A DNA stretch of 64,000 nt from Conexibacter arvalis (GTDB taxonomy: Bacteria > Actinomycetota > Thermoleophilia > Solirubrobacterales > Solirubrobacteraceae). The notes under the pieces are model-generated. The model made no database searches. It saw only the letters and a program-made list of their open reading frames with translations, and had not been told where the DNA came from. Of this stretch, positions 2,514-15,094 are shown piece by piece (positions within the stretch are counted from its first letter, which is position 1; every line of letters starts with the position of its first letter). The stretch is from assembly GCF_014199525.1 (NCBI RefSeq), contig NZ_JACHNU010000001.1:1652182-1716181 (forward strand). Reading direction: 5' to 3'. The position numbers were made by a program, and so were the translations under genes.

Positions 2514-3395
2514 ATGAGCAGCGAGTTCATCGCCGCCTACGCCGGCAGCTCCGTCGCGCAGGCGGCGCTGGTCGCCGGCGCGACCGCGACGGCGGCGCCG
2601 ATGTGGACGCGCGCGCTGCGTCATCGCGCCTTCGCGCTGATCCCGCCGTTCTCGCTGATCGGCGTCGTCGTGCTGCTGCGCCTCTACCCCGACGGCGCGT
2701 CGGCCTTCGCGAAGGCGGCGCTCGTGCTCGTGCCGCTGCTCGCGCTCCTCTCCGCGGCGCGCCTCGGGCCGGCCGCGGTGCTGCTGACGCTCGCGGCGAT
2801 CGGCGCCGTCCTGCACGACGGCCACTCGCTCGTCGGCCAGCTCGCGGCGCTGCTCCTGATCGGCGGCTCGTGCCTGCTGCTCGGCGCCCTGCTGGTCGAG
2901 CTGACCCCGACGCGCTGGCTCGGCGCCGGGATAGCCGCGATGGCCGCCGCCGATCTCGTGCTGGTCGCCAGCGGTGTGCTCGGCCCGGCCAGCGACGTGC
3001 TCAACGCCGCCGGCGTCGGCGAGCACCTGCCGCAGCTCCAGCGCGTCGAGCTGGGCCCGCTGGAGATGGGCTACGGCGACGTCTTCCTGCCGGCGCTCGT
3101 CGGCGCGCTGCTCGCCTCGCGCGCCCGTCCGCGCACGTGGGCGGCCGGTCTGACGCTGCTGTTCGCGCTCGCCGCGGGGCTCGTCTTCCTCGCCTTCGAC
3201 CGGCTGCCGGCGACCGTCCCGGTCGCGCTCGCGCTGCTCGTCGTCGAGGCGGCCGGCGCGGGTCGGGTCTGGTGGCGTCGGCGCGCTAGCCTCGGTGCAT
3301 GGCTCTCGACATCGCGATCGCGGGCGGACACGGGCAGATCGCCCTCCGCCTCGGCAAGCTGCTCGCCGCGCGCGGAGACCGCGTCCGCGGCCTGA
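2514..3395 (+). CDS. polytopic membrane protein with presenilin-like aspartyl protease marks
   Basis: 293 residues with about eight or nine hydrophobic segments. The start is the ATG at 2514. Three features recall GxGD intramembrane aspartyl proteases (presenilin/signal peptide peptidase): an Asp inside a membrane helix (D147 in 'AAMAAADLVLV'), a GxGD box at the start of the next helix (G186-Y-G-D189) and a P-V-A-L motif (236-239) in the last helix. D189 to P236 is 47 residues, close to the 48 between D385 and P433 of presenilin-1. The last 30 residues overlap the start of the following gene by 97 bases and turn polar; they may be dispensable. Family assignment is an inference; no close relative is recognised. 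Confidence 0.6.
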   Translation: MSSEFIAAYAGSSVAQAALVAGATATAAPMWTRALRHRAFALIPPFSLIGVVVLLRLYPDGASAFAKAALVLVPLLALLSAARLGPAAVLLTLAAIGAVLHDGHSLVGQLAALLLIGGSCLLLGALLVELTPTRWLGAGIAAMAAADLVLVASGVLGPASDVLNAAGVGEHLPQLQRVELGPLEMGYGDVFLPALVGALLASRARPRTWAAGLTLLFALAAGLVFLAFDRLPATVPVALALLVVEAAGAGRVWWRRRASLGAWLSTSRSRADTGRSPSASASCSPRAETASAA

Positions 3396-6792: not shown

Positions 6793-7572
6793 ATGGGGCG
6801 CCTCGACGACGTCGACCTGAGCCGGTCGCTCGACAAGGACGAAGGTGCGCGGCTGCTGGCCGAGCAGCAGCGGCGCCTGCTCGCGCTGCGGCTGCAGCTC
6901 GGCGGCCTGCTCGGCGACCACGACCGCCTTGGGCCGCCGCTGTGCGTCCTGTTCGAGGGCTGGGACGCCTCCGGCAAGGGCGGCGCGATCAGACGCCTCG
7001 TCGCCCCGCTCGACCCGCGGCACGTGCGCGTCGTGCAGTTCGCGGCGCCGACCCCCGACGAGAAGCGCCACCACTTCCTCCAGCGCTTCTGGCCCGTGCT
7101 GCCCGGCTGGGGCGGCATGGCCGTGCTCGACCGCTCCTGGTACGGCCGCGTGCTGGTCGAGCGCGTCGAGGGCTTCGCGACCGAGGGGGAGTGGCGGCGC
7201 GCCCATGACGAGATCGCCGGTTTCGAGCAGTCGCTCCACGGCGAGGGGATGGTGCTGGTGAAGATCTTCCTGCACCTCTCCGACGCGGAGCAGAAGAAGC
7301 GGTTCGAGCAGCGTGCGAAGGACCCGCTCAAGCAGTGGAAGCTGACCGACGAGGACTGGCGCAACCGGGAGAAGCGCCCGGCCTATCTGGAGGCGCTGGA
7401 GGAGATGTTCGCCCGCACCGACCGTCCCGCCGCGCCGTGGACCGTGATCTCCGCCGAGTCGAAGCCGTTCGCGCGCGTGCGCGTGCTCGAGGCCGTCTGC
7501 GAGGCGATCGAGGAGGGCATGCGCGCCAACGGAATGGAGCCGATATCTTTCCCGCCACGAGAAGGGAAGTAG
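6793..7572 (+). CDS. ppk2: polyphosphate kinase 2 family protein
   Basis: 259 residues. Walker A 'GWDASGKGG' (residues 56-64) and the Walker B/lid region 'DRSWYGR' (113-119) are hallmarks of PPK2, which transfers phosphate between inorganic polyphosphate and nucleotides (AMP, ADP or GDP). The single-domain length fits class I/III enzymes; 'FLHLSDAEQKKRFEQR' and 'DWRNREKRPAYLEALEEM' complete the fold. Its last codons and stop (GAA GGG AAG TAG) are also the first conserved part of the putative riboswitch of the next gene, so the two units overlap physically. Whether it makes polyphosphate or NTPs is not decided by what I see. Confidence 0.9.
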   Translation: MGRLDDVDLSRSLDKDEGARLLAEQQRRLLALRLQLGGLLGDHDRLGPPLCVLFEGWDASGKGGAIRRLVAPLDPRHVRVVQFAAPTPDEKRHHFLQRFWPVLPGWGGMAVLDRSWYGRVLVERVEGFATEGEWRRAHDEIAGFEQSLHGEGMVLVKIFLHLSDAEQKKRFEQRAKDPLKQWKLTDEDWRNREKRPAYLEALEEMFARTDRPAAPWTVISAESKPFARVRVLEAVCEAIEEGMRANGMEPISFPPREGK

Positions 7573-7693
7573 CCCTGCGACACGGCGCGTTCGTCAGTAC
7601 GGCTCCGAGCACGGAGCCCGGCGCGTCGGCCGCACCATCGCGGCGGGCCAAACCTTCGAGACCACCGACAGATCTCGAAGGAGCCCCCAAGAC
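7559..7693 (+). promoter_or_regulatory. yybP-ykoY-type manganese riboswitch (translational)
   Basis: The 5' part reads GAAGGGAAGTAGCC, close to the family's GGGGAGTAGC; then TTCGTCAGTACGG (family GTCGTCAATTCG), a perfect GGCTCCG-AGCA-CGGAGCC hairpin (7601-7618) followed by CGGCGCG (family CCGGC), and AAACCTTCGAGACC closing helix P1 by pairing CCTTC (7653-7657) with GAAGG (7561-7565). The P1 3' strand CCTTCGAGA (7653-7661) can instead pair perfectly with TCTCGAAGG (7673-7681), which contains the AAGGAG ribosome-binding site at 7678-7683. So metal binding would free the RBS and switch translation on. It precedes a TerC gene, the classic partner of this riboswitch. Confidence 0.75.
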
Positions 7694-8692
7694 ATGACGT
7701 TCGCCTGGATCGGCCTTGCCGTCTTCATCGTCGCAGCGCTCGCGCTCGACCTCCGAGGGCACGGCGGCAGAGCGATGAGACCCAAGCAGGCGCTGTTCTG
7801 GTCGATCACGTGGACGGTGATCGGCGTCGCCTTCGCCGCCGTCGTGGTCGTGATCGAGGACGGCACCGCCGCGAGCGAGTACCTCGCCGGCTTCCTGATC
7901 GAGAAGTCGCTGTCGCTCGACAACCTGTTCGTCTTCGCGATCCTCTTCTCGTTCTTCCAGGTGCCCGACGAGCAGCGCCTGAAGGTGCTGATCTTCGGCA
8001 TCGCCGGCGCGATCGTCCTGCGCACGATCTTCATCCTCGTCGGCGCGGCCGCGCTCGACGCCTTCCACGCGACGACCTACGTGCTCGGCGCGCTGCTGCT
8101 CTTCACCGCGATCAGAATCGCCAGATCGGGCGGGGAGGAGATGGACCCGGAGAGAACGCTGCTGATGCGCTGGATGCGCAAGCTGCTGCCGATCTCCAAG
8201 GAGTACGACGGCGACAAGCTGTTCACCGTCGAGAACGGCCGCAGACTGGCCACCCCGCTGTTCGCCGCGCTGGCGCTCGTCGCGGCCTTCGACGTGATGT
8301 TCGCGATCGACTCGATCCCGGCGATCTTCGCGATCACGCGTGACACGTTCGTCGTCTTCGCCGCGAACGCCTTCTCGCTGCTGGGCATGGTCTCGCTCTA
8401 CTTCCTGCTCGACGGCCTGCTCGACCGCTTCCGCTTCCTCCACTACGGCCTCGCGGTGATCCTCGCCTTCGTCGCGGCGAAGCTGCTGCTGGTCGACACC
8501 TCGTTCCACCCGTCGATCGGCGTCTCGATGGCGGTGATCGTCGTCTCGCTCGCCGGCGCCGCGCTCGCCTCGGTGATCGTCGAGCGCAGAGAGGCGCGCC
8601 TCGCCGCCGAGCGCGCCGCCGCCGGCCACGGCCCGCTGCCGGCCGAGCCGCCGGCGGAGGAGAAGGACGAGACCCCCGCGCCGCGCGCGTAG
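7694..8692 (+). CDS. TerC/Alx-family membrane protein, probable manganese exporter
   Basis: 332 residues with about eight membrane helices. Conserved TerC motifs are present: 'FLIEKSLSLDNLFVFAILFSFF' (acidic Glu/Asp in a helix), 'FDVMFAIDSIPAIFAITRD' (Asp pair in helix) and 'RFRFLHYGLAVILAFVAAK'. TerC/Alx proteins export Mn2+ and help load manganese onto, or protect, secreted enzymes. The C-terminal 45 residues are a charged Ala/Glu/Pro tail. RBS AAGGAG lies 10 bases before the ATG and is caught in the hairpin described for the riboswitch, supporting manganese-induced expression. Confidence 0.9.
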   Translation: MTFAWIGLAVFIVAALALDLRGHGGRAMRPKQALFWSITWTVIGVAFAAVVVVIEDGTAASEYLAGFLIEKSLSLDNLFVFAILFSFFQVPDEQRLKVLIFGIAGAIVLRTIFILVGAAALDAFHATTYVLGALLLFTAIRIARSGGEEMDPERTLLMRWMRKLLPISKEYDGDKLFTVENGRRLATPLFAALALVAAFDVMFAIDSIPAIFAITRDTFVVFAANAFSLLGMVSLYFLLDGLLDRFRFLHYGLAVILAFVAAKLLLVDTSFHPSIGVSMAVIVVSLAGAALASVIVERREARLAAERAAAGHGPLPAEPPAEEKDETPAPRA

Positions 8693-9725: not shown

Positions 9726-11243
9726 ATGAGCGAGCAGACCGAGATCCCCGCGCACGTCGACGTCGCGATCGTCGGCACCGGCTTCGCCGGGCTCGGGATG
9801 GCGATCAAGCTCAAGCAGGCCGGGCGCGACGACTTCGTGCTGCTGGAGCGCGCCGGGGACGTCGGCGGCACTTGGCGCGACAACACCTACCCGGGCTGCC
9901 AGTGCGACGTGCCGTCCAACGTCTACTCGTTCTCCTTCGCCCCCAACCCCGGCTGGACGCGCACCTTCGCGCCCCAGCAGGAGATCTGGGCGTACCTCAG
10001 GGACGTCACCGAGCGCTACGGCCTGCGCCCGCACATCCGCTTCGGCGCCGAGCTGACGGGCGCCGAGTGGGACGAGGCGGCGCAGCGGTGGACGGTGGAG
10101 ACCGCGCGCGGGACGTTGACCGCGCGCGTGCTCGTCGGCGCGATGGGGCCGCTCAGCGAGCCGGCGATCCCGCGCATCCCCGGCCTCGACCGCTTCGAGG
10201 GGACGAGCTTCCATTCCGCCACGTGGGACCACGGCCACGACCTGCGCGGCCGCAGGGTCGCCGTCATCGGCACCGGCGCCTCGGCGATCCAGTTCGTGCC
10301 GGCGATCCAGCCGCAGGTCGGTCGGCTGACCGTCTTCCAGCGCACGCCGCCGTGGATCATGCCGCGCCGCGACCGCCGCGTCCGCCCGCGCGAGCGCGCC
10401 CTCTTCAGGCTGCTGCCGGCGGCGCAGAAGCTCGTGCGCGACACCGTCTACGTCGGCCGCGAGCTGACCGTCCTCCCGTTCATGAAGCCGGGGCTGCTCG
10501 GCAAGGTCCCGGAGCGGATGGCGCGCGCCCACCTCGCCCGCTCGGTGCGGGACCCGGAGCTGCGCGCGAAGCTGACGCCCAGCTACGGCGTCGGCTGCAA
10601 GCGGATCCTGCTGTCGAACGAGTGGTATCCGGCGCTCCAGCAGCCCAACGTCGACGTCGTCACCGACGGCATCGCGGAGATCCGGCCGAACGCGGTCGTG
10701 ACCGCCGACGGCCGCGAGCACGAGGTCGACACGATCATCTTCGGCACCGGCTTCCACGTCACCGACATGCCGTTCGTCGACAAGCTGCGCGGACGCGGCG
10801 GGAAGCTGCTCGGCGACCTCTGGCGCGAGCAGGGGATGCAGGCGCTGCGCGGCACGACCGTCCACGGCTTCCCGAACCTCTTCCTGATGGTCGGGCCGAA
10901 CACCGGCCTCGGCCACAACTCGATCGTCTACATGATCGAGTCCCAGCTCGCCTACGCGATCGACGCGCTGGAGACGACGGCGCGCGAGGGCGCGGCCGTC
11001 TTCGATCCGACCGCCGCGGCGCAGACCGCCTTCAACGAGCTGGTCGCGAAGCGGATGAAGGGGACGGTCTGGACCTCGGGCGGCTGCGCCAGCTGGTATC
11101 TCGACGCCCACGGCCGCAACACGACGCTGTGGCCGGGCGCCTCGTGGCGCTTCCGGCTCCAGACGCGGCGGTTCGATCCGGCCGAGTACCGCCTCGACGC
11201 GCCGGTGCCCCAGCCGCGGCCCGAGCCGGTCGCCGTCGCCTGA
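9726..11243 (+). CDS. flavin-containing (Baeyer-Villiger type) monooxygenase
   Basis: 505 residues. Two Rossmann loops, FAD 'GTGFAG' (17-22) and NADP 'GTGASA' (about 181), flank the Baeyer-Villiger fingerprint FxGxxxHxxxW (F-E-G-T-S-F-H-S-A-T-W, about 157-167), here followed by D rather than P. The FAD region 'VGGTWRDNTYPGCQCDVPSNVYSF' pattern (VGGTWxxNxYPGxxxDxxxxxY) is also typical. These enzymes use NADPH and O2 to turn ketones into esters or lactones. ATG at 9726 follows AGCGAGACGCAGCG. It is alone on its transcript, ended by a strong hairpin at 11272, and probably repressed by the divergent TetR protein until a ketone-type inducer is present. Confidence 0.9.
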   Translation: MSEQTEIPAHVDVAIVGTGFAGLGMAIKLKQAGRDDFVLLERAGDVGGTWRDNTYPGCQCDVPSNVYSFSFAPNPGWTRTFAPQQEIWAYLRDVTERYGLRPHIRFGAELTGAEWDEAAQRWTVETARGTLTARVLVGAMGPLSEPAIPRIPGLDRFEGTSFHSATWDHGHDLRGRRVAVIGTGASAIQFVPAIQPQVGRLTVFQRTPPWIMPRRDRRVRPRERALFRLLPAAQKLVRDTVYVGRELTVLPFMKPGLLGKVPERMARAHLARSVRDPELRAKLTPSYGVGCKRILLSNEWYPALQQPNVDVVTDGIAEIRPNAVVTADGREHEVDTIIFGTGFHVTDMPFVDKLRGRGGKLLGDLWREQGMQALRGTTVHGFPNLFLMVGPNTGLGHNSIVYMIESQLAYAIDALETTAREGAAVFDPTAAAQTAFNELVAKRMKGTVWTSGGCASWYLDAHGRNTTLWPGASWRFRLQTRRFDPAEYRLDAPVPQPRPEPVAVA

Positions 11244-11271
11244 ACCGCGCGGCGCTCCCCCGAAGCGAGAC

Positions 11272-11312
11272 GCGCGTGACGCGGAACTGCGTCACGCGCC
11301 CCCTCAGGGGGG
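11272..11312 (+). terminator. hairpin terminator after the monooxygenase
   Basis: Perfect 11-bp stem GCGCGTGACGC-GGAACT-GCGTCACGCGC (11272-11299) immediately followed by a second small stem, CCCCC-TCA-GGGGG. No U-tract, as is common in high-GC actinobacteria. Confidence 0.6.
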
Positions 11313-11343
11313 AGAGAATGGCTCGCGAGGGCGACATCGCCGC

Positions 11344-11566
11344 TTGACGCGGACGGAGCGCCCGGCATATAACAGGCTCTGGCGCCGCGCACTGCGGCGT
11401 CGGGGGAACGAAAACGAGGAGCAGCTCGTGGTAGGCGTTCACCGAGTCCGCACGCATCTGGGGCCGGTCGTCGCGGGCTGCGATGAACTGATGTCGAGGG
11501 GACCGCGCGGTTGCGGGCGCTCTGCGCCGCCGCTCCGCGCTGCCCGAAGGGCGAGGTGAGGAGCCG
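11344..11566 (+). promoter_or_regulatory. promoter and long leader of the methyltransferase-IleRS operon
   Basis: TTGACG (11344-11349), an 18-base spacer and TATAAC (11368-11373) form the best sigma-70-like promoter seen in the window. Transcription would begin near 11380, giving a leader of about 187 bases with no plausible ORF. The leader can form GC-rich hairpins (for example GCCC-GAA-GGGC near its end) before the RBS GAGGAG at about 11555. I could not match it to a known riboswitch. The whole 11244-11566 gap holds only the preceding terminator and this promoter plus leader. Confidence 0.65.
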
Positions 11567-12610
11567 ATGGCCGACGTCGAACCGTTGCTGCGGACCGAAT
11601 CCGGGGATGCGATAGGCGGCGACGCGGCCGCGCGACGTCCGGTCTTCGAGCTGTTCGAGGGGTTCGCGCTCACGAGCGTGCTCGCCTCGCTCGAGCGCGC
11701 CGGCCTGCTCGCCCGCCTCGAGGGCGGCAGCGTGCCCGCCGACCCGAGCGAGGGCAGAGACGGCTTGCCGCTCGCGACGCTCCGCTATCTTGCTCAACGA
11801 GGAGTGGTCGAAGAGGTCAACGGGATGTTCACCCTTTCCCAGCGCGGTCGCGAAATCTGCAAGGACAAGGGCTACCTGGTCTGGCTCCAGGGCGGCTACG
11901 GCCACGTCCTCGCGTCGCTCGGCGACTTCTCGACCGGCGCGCGGCGCTACGGCGACGACGTCATACGCGACGGCCGCTGGGTCGCCGACGGCTCGGCGCT
12001 GATCGGCCGCGACGACGTCTCGCCGCACGCGACCGAGGTCCTCACCGGGATCGACTTCAGCCACGTCGTCGACCTCGGCTGCGGCAACGCCCGCTTCCTG
12101 ATCGCGGCCGCCAACCGCTTCGGCGTCACCGGCGTCGGCGTCGACCTCGCGCCCGAGGCGTGCGAGGACGCCGGGCACGCGATCGCCGCCGCGGGGCTCG
12201 AGGACAAGATCAAGGTCCGCTGCGGCGACGCCGGCGACCTCGACGCGATCCCGGAGCTGGCCGAGGCCGACCTCGCGGTCGCCTTCTTCCTGCTGCACGA
12301 GATCTTCGAGCACGGGCGCGAGGCGCTGATGGCCTACCTGCGCAAGCTCGGCTCGATCATGCCGAGAGGGGCGTACATGCTCGTCGCGGAGGTGCAGCCG
12401 GCCAGCGGCGCGCCGGACGAGAAGTGGCGGCCGGAGTTCACGCTGCTGCACGCGATCATGCGCCAGCAGCTGCTGACCGCCGAGGGCTGGCACGACGCCT
12501 TCGTCGAGGCCGGCTGGTCGCGCCACGAGGTGCGCGACCTCGGCCTCCCGGGCGCCGTCCTGCTGCTGTACCAGAACACCGCGCCCGCGGGCGCCGAGGG
12601 AGGTGAGTGA
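11567..12610 (+). CDS. class I SAM-dependent methyltransferase
   Basis: 347 residues. An N-terminal helical/winged-helix-like dimerisation domain ('LFEGFALTSVLASLERAGLL', 'LRYLAQRGVVEEVNGMFTLS') precedes the SAM-binding fold with motif I 'VVDLGCGNARF' (about residue 167) and 'GVGVDLAPEA'. This layout is shared by small-molecule O-methyltransferases and by the alpha-keto acid C-methyltransferases of antibiotic pathways (MppJ type). First gene of a seven-gene operon; stop is 3 bases before the cupin start. Because the operon's other enzymes handle 2-oxo-C5 acids, C-methylation of such an acid is an attractive but unproved role. RBS GAGGAG precedes the ATG. Confidence 0.85.
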   Translation: MADVEPLLRTESGDAIGGDAAARRPVFELFEGFALTSVLASLERAGLLARLEGGSVPADPSEGRDGLPLATLRYLAQRGVVEEVNGMFTLSQRGREICKDKGYLVWLQGGYGHVLASLGDFSTGARRYGDDVIRDGRWVADGSALIGRDDVSPHATEVLTGIDFSHVVDLGCGNARFLIAAANRFGVTGVGVDLAPEACEDAGHAIAAAGLEDKIKVRCGDAGDLDAIPELAEADLAVAFFLLHEIFEHGREALMAYLRKLGSIMPRGAYMLVAEVQPASGAPDEKWRPEFTLLHAIMRQQLLTAEGWHDAFVEAGWSRHEVRDLGLPGAVLLLYQNTAPAGAEGGE

Positions 12611-12613
12611 CCG

Positions 12614-13006
12614 ATGCAGATCGCGCAACGGTCGGGCGTGACGATCACCGACGGGCTGCCGGTCTTCGTCGAGGTCGAGGGCCATCACGCGCCGACGCCG
12701 TTCATGGTCACTCCGGAGACGCTGCCGGGCACGCCGTTCAGCATCGCCGTCGTCGACGCGGCGAGACTGGTCGGCGCCCCGCACGCCGACCTCCACGTCC
12801 ACGACGACCATGACGAGCTCTACCTCGTCGCGACGCCGGGACTGCGGTTCACCGTCGAGACCGAGGACGACGCGATCGAGCTGCGCTCGCCGGCGACGAT
12901 CTCGATCCCGGCAGGGGTCAAGCACCGGCTGATCTGCCACGAGGTCGAGGGCGACCACTGCCCGTTCCTCGGGATCCTGGTGGAGAAGGGGACGCTGCCC
13001 GCCTAA
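12614..13006 (+). CDS. cupin-domain protein
   Basis: 130 residues with one cupin barrel. Motif 1 is 'HADLHVHDDHDELYLV' (His-rich with Glu, the metal set) and motif 2 is 'PAGVKHRL' with His. Small cupins of this type act as isomerases, epimerases, decarboxylases or dioxygenases, usually with Fe, Mn or Zn. It sits between a methyltransferase and an acetaldehyde dehydrogenase in one operon, so its substrate is probably the pathway's oxo or enol acid. RBS GGAGGTG is located in the end of the preceding gene. Confidence 0.8.
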   Translation: MQIAQRSGVTITDGLPVFVEVEGHHAPTPFMVTPETLPGTPFSIAVVDAARLVGAPHADLHVHDDHDELYLVATPGLRFTVETEDDAIELRSPATISIPAGVKHRLICHEVEGDHCPFLGILVEKGTLPA

Positions 13007-13035
13007 GGGCGGTGAGAGGGGGAGACAGGAAAGCG

Positions 13036-13998
13036 ATGGAAGCGTCAGCCGCAACGAGAACGAGCCCGCCGCCGCGACCGCATCTGCGGCTCGCCGCGCA
13101 GGGCGGTGGCGGCGCCCTGCGCGTCGGCATCATCGGCACCGGCAACATCGGCACCGACCTGCTGCTCAAGGTGCAGCGGTCGCCGCTGCTCGAATGCGAG
13201 CTGTTCGCCGGCCGCAACAGCAGATCGGCCGGCATAGGCAAGGCCCGCGAGCTGGGCGTCGAGACCTCCGATCGCAGCATCGCGCCGTTCGTCGAGGAGC
13301 CCGGCCGCTTCGACCTGATCTTCGACGCGACCTCGGCGGCCGACGCCGCGCGCCACTACGAGCTGCTGAAGCCGCTCGGGATACCGGTGATCGACCTGAC
13401 CCCGGCGAAGCTCGGCAAGCTCTGCATCCCGGCGCTCAACCTCGCCGACTGCGTCGGCCAGCCCAACCTCTGCATGGTCACGTGCGGCGGCCAGGCGGCG
13501 GTGCCGCTGGCGCGCTGCGTGATCGAGACCCAGCCGGAGGTCGAGTACGTCGAGATCGTCTCGACGAGCGCGTCGGCGAGCGTCGGGCCCGCGACGCGGA
13601 TCAACATAGACGAGTACCTGGCGACGACCGAGGCGGCGCTGCGCCACTTCAGCAAGGCCGAGCGGGTCAAGTCGATCCTGCTCGTCAACCCGTCGAAGCC
13701 GCCGATCATGATGCAGAACACGGTCTTCGCGAAGGCCGACGAGGCCGACCTGCCGGCGCTGACGGCGGCGGTCGAGCAGATGGTCGAGCGGATACGGGCC
13801 TACGTCCCCGGCTACCGGCTGGTCGTCGCGCCGCTGCACGAGAACGGGCGCATCGCGATGACCGTCCAGGTCGCGGGCGCCGGCGACTACCTGCCGGCCT
13901 ACGCCGGCAACCTGGACATCATCACCTGCGCCGCGGTCGCCGCGGCGGAGGAGAACGCGCGAGTCCTCCTTGGGGGCTCCGCCGCGACGGGACACTGA
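13036..13998 (+). CDS. acetaldehyde dehydrogenase (acylating)
   Basis: 320 residues, close to the usual 300-320 of MhpF/DmpF/BphJ. N-terminal Rossmann motif 'VGIIGTGNIGTDLL', and the catalytic Cys150 in 'VTCGGQAAVP', match the family. The enzyme interconverts acetaldehyde + CoA + NAD+ and acetyl-CoA + NADH, and channels acetaldehyde from or to the aldolase partner, which is the next gene. ATG at 13036 with AGGA upstream is preferred over a frame extension to 13012. There is an extra Pro/Ala-rich N-terminal 25 residues before the Rossmann fold. Confidence 0.93.
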   Translation: MEASAATRTSPPPRPHLRLAAQGGGGALRVGIIGTGNIGTDLLLKVQRSPLLECELFAGRNSRSAGIGKARELGVETSDRSIAPFVEEPGRFDLIFDATSAADAARHYELLKPLGIPVIDLTPAKLGKLCIPALNLADCVGQPNLCMVTCGGQAAVPLARCVIETQPEVEYVEIVSTSASASVGPATRINIDEYLATTEAALRHFSKAERVKSILLVNPSKPPIMMQNTVFAKADEADLPALTAAVEQMVERIRAYVPGYRLVVAPLHENGRIAMTVQVAGAGDYLPAYAGNLDIITCAAVAAAEENARVLLGGSAATGH

Positions 13999-14029
13999 GG
14001 CGTGAGATGACTGAGGGGGAACCAGTCGC

Positions 14030-15094
14030 ATGGCACAGATCCTGATCAGCGATCCGACGCTGCGGGACGGCAACCACGCCGTGCAGCACCGACTCAACGA
14101 GGAGCAGATCCGCCGCTACGCCGCCGCGGCCAACGCCGCGAGAGTCGCGATAGTCGAGGTCGGGCACGGCAACGGCCTCGGCGCCTCCTCGCTGCAGGTC
14201 GGCGAGGCGCTGCTGAGCGACGCCGACATGCTGCGGATCGCCCGCGAGGAGCTCTCCGACGTGAAGCTGGGCGTCTTCGGCATCCCCGGCTTCGCGACGA
14301 TGACGCGCGACCTCGACGTCGCGATCGACGCCGGCGCCGACGTCTTCCGCGTCGGCGCCCATTGCACCGAGGCCGACCTGACAGAGCGCCACATCACCTA
14401 CCTGCGCGAGCAGGAGAAGGACGTCTACGGCGTCCTGATGATGTGCCACATGGCCACGCCCGAGCGGCTCTGCGAGGAGGCGCTCAAGATGAAGGCATAC
14501 GGGGCGAGAGGCGTGATCGTGATGGACTCGGCCGGCGCCTTCCTGACCGCCGACCTGCAGGACCGCATAGCCCGGCTGGTCGACGCGACCTCGTTCGCGA
14601 TCGGCTTCCACGGCCACAACAACCTCTGCCTCGCGGTCGCCAACTCGGTCGCGGCGGTCGACGCCGGCGCGACGATCGTCGACGGCACGGCGCGTGGCTT
14701 CGGGGCCGGCGCCGGCAACACCGAGCTGGAGGTGCTCGTCGCGGTGCTGGCCGAGCTCGGCCACGACACCGGCATAGACCTCTACAAGGTGCTCGACGCC
14801 GCCGACCTCGCCGAGCGCGAGCTGGTGCAGCAGCTGCCGAGCACCGACTCGGTCGGCATCGTCAGCGGCCTCGCCGGCGTCTTCTCCGGCTACTCGAAGC
14901 CGGTCCGCCGGATCGCCAGAGACTTCGGCGTCGACCCGCGCGACGTCTTCTTCGCGCTCGGCAGACGCGAGGTGATCGCCGGCCAGGAGGACGTGATCCT
15001 CGAGGTCGCGATGGCGCTGCGCGACGCGGTCGAGGAGCAGAGGCTGGAGCAGCAGGACGAAGAGATACGCACGACCGAGGGGGAACGGTCATGA
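14030..15094 (+). CDS. 4-hydroxy-2-oxovalerate aldolase
   Basis: 354 residues of the DmpG/MhpE/BphI family (HMGL-like TIM barrel plus C-terminal communication domain). 'DPTLRDGNHAVQH' supplies R12, D13 and H16, equivalent to the catalytic Arg-Asp-His of BphI, and 'GFHGHNNL' gives the metal HxH. It splits 4-hydroxy-2-oxopentanoate to pyruvate and acetaldehyde, and the reaction is reversible. It forms a channelling complex with the acylating dehydrogenase encoded just upstream. A GAGGGGGA RBS precedes the ATG. The gene ends in ATGA overlapping the next start. Confidence 0.94.
   Translation: MAQILISDPTLRDGNHAVQHRLNEEQIRRYAAAANAARVAIVEVGHGNGLGASSLQVGEALLSDADMLRIAREELSDVKLGVFGIPGFATMTRDLDVAIDAGADVFRVGAHCTEADLTERHITYLREQEKDVYGVLMMCHMATPERLCEEALKMKAYGARGVIVMDSAGAFLTADLQDRIARLVDATSFAIGFHGHNNLCLAVANSVAAVDAGATIVDGTARGFGAGAGNTELEVLVAVLAELGHDTGIDLYKVLDAADLAERELVQQLPSTDSVGIVSGLAGVFSGYSKPVRRIARDFGVDPRDVFFALGRREVIAGQEDVILEVAMALRDAVEEQRLEQQDEEIRTTEGERS

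Follow-up and report, generated by a model that had tools for sequence, protein, structure and literature searches.

A putative presenilin/SPP-fold diaspartyl intramembrane protease of Conexibacter arvalis and its family in one class of Actinomycetota

Presenilin is the core enzyme of the Alzheimer-linked gamma-secretase. The A22 proteases, to which presenilin and signal peptide peptidase (SPP) belong, have been described in eukaryotes and archaea (PMC2947513, PMC4343526, PMC9263693), and one review that lists aspartyl intramembrane-cleaving proteases among the bacterial ones gives a eukaryotic presenilin as its sole example (PMC7593790). Here we describe a gene at positions 2514-3395 (+ strand) of a 64,000-nucleotide stretch of DNA from the soil bacterium Conexibacter arvalis, referred to below as the window, whose product had been proposed from the letters alone to be a possible presenilin/SPP-like GxGD intramembrane protease. 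Our results support this original prediction, and we consider it very probable that the window protein is a diaspartyl intramembrane protease of the presenilin/SPP fold, a function that stays putative. The remark that bacterial members of this class are poorly described also agrees with the literature we found, which covers eukaryotes and archaea; no bacterial presenilin-fold family was found described in the literature searched, though an earlier mention is possible.

Among the closest known systems is the archaeal PSH, or MCMJR1, of Methanoculleus marisnigri (MEROPS A22, PF06550; PDB 4HYC, 4Y6K), whose natural substrates are not known (PMC2947513). Like PSH, the window protein is a prokaryotic single-subunit protein of similar length, with nine transmembrane (TM) helices in its predicted structure, an Asp in TM6, a GxGD box at the start of TM7 and a proline motif before TM9. 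The two share only 12% identity, however, and the window protein has no match to PF06550; PSH carries Y161-D162 and LPPLNGG where the window protein has A-D and LPATVPVA, and the TM6-TM7 loop is shorter in the window protein, the two Asp lying 42 residues apart as against 58 in PSH. Human SPPL2a, of the signal peptide peptidase family (PF04258; PDB 9K93), is the best structural match and would share the N-out/C-in orientation predicted here, but it is only 14% identical, and the bacterial protein has no PF04258 match, lacks the N-terminal protease-associated domain and does not have the QPAL motif as such. Human presenilin-1, PSEN1 (PF01080; PDB 8OQZ, 6LR4), places its Asp residues in the same positions (TM6 and the start of TM7), its LPALP aligns with LPATVP, and its substrate- or inhibitor-bound form has a TM6a helix and a pre-TM7 strand like those predicted here. 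Unlike PSEN1, to which it is 12% identical, the window protein has no PF01080 match, a distance of 42 rather than 128 residues between the Asp, no long autoproteolysed loop and the opposite predicted topology; the PSEN1 partners nicastrin, APH-1 and PEN-2 are not expected alongside it, and no search for them was made.

An AlphaFold2 model of the window protein, computed with no templates from a 50-sequence alignment of homologues, reached a pLDDT of 94.7 and a pTM of 0.90, and shows nine TM helices (residues 3-22, 38-57, 59-84, 86-101, 106-130, 133-152, 187-202, 207-225 and 234-261). VIA-align placed this model on SPPL2a with Z 17.7 (234 residues, 3.6 Å), on PSEN1 with Z 17.4 (252 residues, 4.5 Å) and on PSH with Z 12.0 (216 residues); all 23 top rows belong to this one family, and the first unrelated protein follows at Z 5.9. 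Helical bundles can score about 13 in such comparisons without meaning, a level that the PSEN1 and SPPL2a scores exceed. Foldseek likewise ranked presenilin, SPPL2a and PSH 1-8, with modest E values of 0.005-0.3. A second copy of the gene in the same genome (G000:C1:1435283-1436023; 40% identity) was modelled separately, from an alignment that largely overlaps that of the window protein, and gave the same picture: pLDDT 94.6, Z 17.4 to SPPL2a, 16.6 to PSEN1 and 12.1 to PSH, the next unrelated protein lying at 4.1. Both template-free models thus have the nine-TM presenilin fold, matching presenilin, SPPL2a and PSH over 216-252 residues with Z 12-18, and the comparison with archaeal PSH that had been proposed as a check came out in favour of the prediction.

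Within this fold, TM6 carries one conserved Asp and the start of TM7 another. The predicted TM6 (residues 133-152; 2910..2969, +) bears D147 (codon 2952..2954, +), the putative first catalytic Asp and counterpart of PSEN1 D257, and the G186-Y-G-D189 box (3069..3080, +) contributes D189, the putative second catalytic Asp, corresponding to PSEN1 D385. Structures of gamma-secretase have revealed a TM6a helix and a pre-TM7 strand in substrate- or inhibitor-bound presenilin, and two further elements of the model resemble them: a short helix at the position of TM6a, directly after TM6 (residues 156-165; 2979..3008, +), and a beta-hairpin (strands 177-180 and 183-186) directly ahead of the GYGD helix and beside TM7. 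Together with the conserved L-P-x-L-Q at residues 172-176, the hairpin (3027..3071, +) forms a possible substrate-binding sheet, as judged from conservation and the model. The PAL-like motif L231-P-A-T-V-P236-V-A-L239 (3204..3230, +) stands at the start of TM9, its PVAL residues 236-239 occupying 3219-3230. D147, GYGD at 186-189, PVAL at 236-239 and the spacing of 47 residues from D189 to P236 were all as first claimed; the corresponding D385-P433 spacing in PSEN1 (sequence of PDB 5a63_B, identical over 467 residues) is 48. The proline equivalent to that of the PAL motif may be either P236 or P232, followed by A233. In the only sequence alignment that we obtained, LPATVPVA falls on LPA-LPIS, so P232-A233 appears to match PSEN1 P433-A434 as well as P236 does, or better.

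The open reading frame begins with an ATG, which fits because close homologues open with the same MSxEFIAAYAG residues, and encodes 293 amino acids. Its last 97 bases (about 32 codons) overlap the next gene, whose ATG is at 3299, and the corresponding C-terminal tail is not conserved among homologues; for both reasons we regard residues 1-262 (2514-3299, +) as the fold domain and the protein proper.

Conservation points to the same residues as the model. Among the first 50 members D147, D189, P173, Q176, G197, P232, T234, P236 and A238 are invariant, and both Asp are present in 90/90 non-identical members. We extended this set to 113 non-identical homologues with three earlier loci and 20 distant members, the latter picked for their similarity rather than for any motif and coming mostly from other families of the class. 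Orthologues lacking either Asp had been named as evidence that would count against the prediction; D147 is present in 113/113 homologues and D189 in 112/113, the single exception having Glu. T234 and P236 are likewise found in 113/113, and P232 in 109/113, with Ala in the other four. The features first noticed in the window protein thus go beyond chance. The only polar positions conserved at 90% or above are Q16, D147, Q176, D189 and T234, so that D147 and D189 are the sole nearly invariant charged residues, all other charged residues falling below 90%. Because of this near-invariance, the membrane Asp pair is likely the chemical core of the family. As to the exception, locus L165 reads GWGE, and may be a dead copy, a variant or a sequencing error.

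Several observations nevertheless weigh against a presenilin-type protease. A shared fold by itself shows no function, and proteolysis is what we infer from it. In one distant branch (L167-L173, L176, L177, L180, L181) GxGD is replaced by GW[LM]D, with both Asp kept, and family-wide G188 of the box is found in 98/113; one member, as noted, has Glu at D189. The Tyr that precedes the first Asp in presenilin and SPP is missing, residue 146 being Ala here and variable in the family, and no A22 family gives a significant match by sequence (hhalign probability <1%). The GW[LM]D form brings to mind the GxHyD variant that archaeal PibD is reported to have (PMC4343526). These points leave some room for a protein with the presenilin fold but a role other than proteolysis, in which the Asp pair would be kept to carry out a different hydrolysis, to transport lipids or ions or to serve in a scaffold, since the relaxed GxGD and the D189E member do indicate some drift. 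Such a protein would have to account for why the only nearly invariant charged residues are precisely the two Asp that make up presenilin's catalytic part, and why the PAL-like prolines and the pre-TM7 strand, the parts with which presenilin holds its substrate, are kept as well; we consider it improbable.

Sequence libraries did not recognise the protein. Neither Pfam nor NCBIfam gave a match to the window protein alone at E <= 10, and 50 members together produced only scattered sub-threshold noise, with nothing to PF01080, PF04258 or PF06550, so the proposed profile check against these three families yielded no matches. There was no PF06550 match in the C. arvalis genome itself, and a sequence search of the PDB with protein and profile queries returned nothing relevant. 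With hhalign, PSEN1 aligned only from GYGD/GLGD through LPATVPVA/LPA-LPIS, and PSH (together with one Natrinema homologue) only at GYGD/GMGD; both scores are non-significant, and both registers agree with the one predicted from structure. Among the sequence features of MEROPS A22, the GxGD box is present (G186-Y-G-D189), while the first Asp lacks the Tyr of YD (A146-D147). Because of this missing Tyr and the lack of a PF01080, PF04258 or PF06550 match we do not place the family in A22 by sequence; according to the models, it is related to A22 by fold, without belonging to those sequence families.

The same profiles and residues bear on two other membrane enzymes with paired Asp. Type IV prepilin/preflagellin peptidases (A24), which would cut at the membrane border, also have a GxGD box and a second Asp and are common in bacteria (PMC2947513, PMC4343526), but their aspartates lie in soluble regions several TM segments apart (PMC2947513), whereas here the pair occupies neighbouring helices of a presenilin fold with nine TM helices, and neither the window protein nor the 50 members matched any A24 family in Pfam, including PF01478. 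An A24-like enzyme is, in our judgement, highly improbable. We find it just as hard to credit a lysoplasmalogenase of the YhhN/TMEM86 type, a bacterial multi-TM enzyme with two essential Asp: TMEM86A requires D82 and D190 (PMC11994398) and YhhN proteins are present in Actinomycetota (PMC9052158), yet these enzymes fold like a GPCR, with 8 TM helices, and depend on conserved Lys, His, Ser and Tyr residues (PMC11994398, PMC9052158). The 113 homologues conserve no residue of these types, and the predicted fold here is that of presenilin; PF07947 was not matched by the window protein or the 50 members. Both candidates fail on profile and conserved residues and were rejected. No A24 or YhhN structure occurs in the fold-match lists, an absence that rules nothing out.

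How a presenilin-type protease of this kind would work can be outlined from the model. Its nine TM helices would make up the enzyme, in which D147 (TM6) and D189 (start of TM7) would activate water and a substrate TM helix would be cut within the membrane. In presenilin, the unwound substrate forms a strand gripped by the 'VKLGLGD' strand and the PAL loop; here, the region of TM6a and the beta-hairpin may play this part together with the L-P-A-T-V-P loop. Mean loop charges across 50 members are +3 to +4 for loop 1, about +2 for loop 7-8 and up to +5 for the C-terminus, with loop 6-7 around 0 or negative, and this positive-inside bias suggests an N-out/C-in topology. Such an orientation would favour type II (N-in/C-out) substrates handled as by SPP, for instance signal-peptide or anchor remnants or tethered regulators.

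Homologues were found in 91/201 related whole genomes. In single-protein searches, the gene was present in 95/349 sampled genomes of the class of C. arvalis, and two phylum-wide samples gave matches in 7/296 and 9/396 genomes, all those outside the class being weak fragments. A contig-level genome scan recovered 72 loci, nearly all from Solirubrobacterales; it was seeded with the LPATVP motif, so its loci are not counted as evidence for that motif, whereas the whole-genome matches are free of this bias. From these counts the family is restricted to the class, where it is patchy, and essentially absent elsewhere in the phylum. A plasmid search found no homologues. In the tree, window-type copies group with full support in a clade of their own that has a long stem (0.71), and the paralogues in a different clade with a short one (0.14, support 0.97). 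Records titled 'Chlamydiae bacterium' and 'Marmoricola' metagenome-assembled genome (L115, L114) also carry the gene, and are probably mis-binned Solirubrobacterales contigs. The member from Patulibacter minatonensis (L182) has an insertion of about 36 residues between TM5 and TM6, and BLAST matches show the same kind of split in four Patulibacter genomes.

The neighbours of the window gene are a divergent glyoxalase gene upstream, kept in relatives, and the overlapping gene from 3299, a Pfam-assigned NAD(P)H-binding NmrA-like protein kept downstream in two close Conexibacter relatives; this context says little about the window gene. A neighbourhood search for a common partner found PEPCK, MoaA, RmuC, MgtE/NRAMP and CcdA-like genes (named by eye) recurring in sub-lineages, with no functional thread among them. 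The paralogue offers more of a lead. In 5/6 Conexibacter genomes it lies 131-163 bp (distances to the matched domain) upstream of an extracytoplasmic function (ECF) sigma-factor gene on the same strand, and in the remaining genome about 4 kb separate the two. The sigma protein, of 544 amino acids, contains sigma-70 regions 2 and 4 and, by eye, a stretch rich in Cys that resembles an anti-sigma factor, a possible TM segment rich in Ala and a long tail of Pro and Thr, so that it may be a sigma factor tethered in type II orientation. It is a candidate substrate of the paralogue, the two (L031:6577-9060, - strand; L032-L036 and equivalents) perhaps forming a tethered regulator/protease pair, but synteny within one genus is weak evidence and the pairing is only a lead. 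Extended to Thermoleophilia-type Actinomycetota, it would imply regulated intramembrane proteolysis in which the paralogue frees the adjacent ECF sigma factor, possibly tethered to the membrane, with the window enzyme as a second, divergent copy acting on type II substrates of its own, a scenario that we hold to be rather unlikely.

Elsewhere in the window, a PPK2-like kinase (FEGWDASGKGG) is followed by a TerC-like membrane protein at 6793-8692, both named from reading the sequence, and this pair is conserved near the window gene in relatives. An apparent catabolic cluster, also named by eye, occupies 9726-15094, with flavin monooxygenase, methyltransferase-like, acetaldehyde dehydrogenase-like and aldolase-like frames.

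Taken by its predicted fold, the window protein apparently represents a separate, undescribed family, common in one class of Actinomycetota, that shares the fold of presenilin and, we infer, its mechanism. A compact, single-subunit bacterial version missed by current profiles would give structural and inhibitor studies new enzymes to work on, add a second prokaryotic lineage from which to reconstruct the origin of presenilin and SPP, and offer culturable hosts that might reveal natural substrates. If true, the release of a sigma factor by the paralogue would mean that presenilin-type signalling also operates in bacteria, on a substrate that is genetically linked to the protease.
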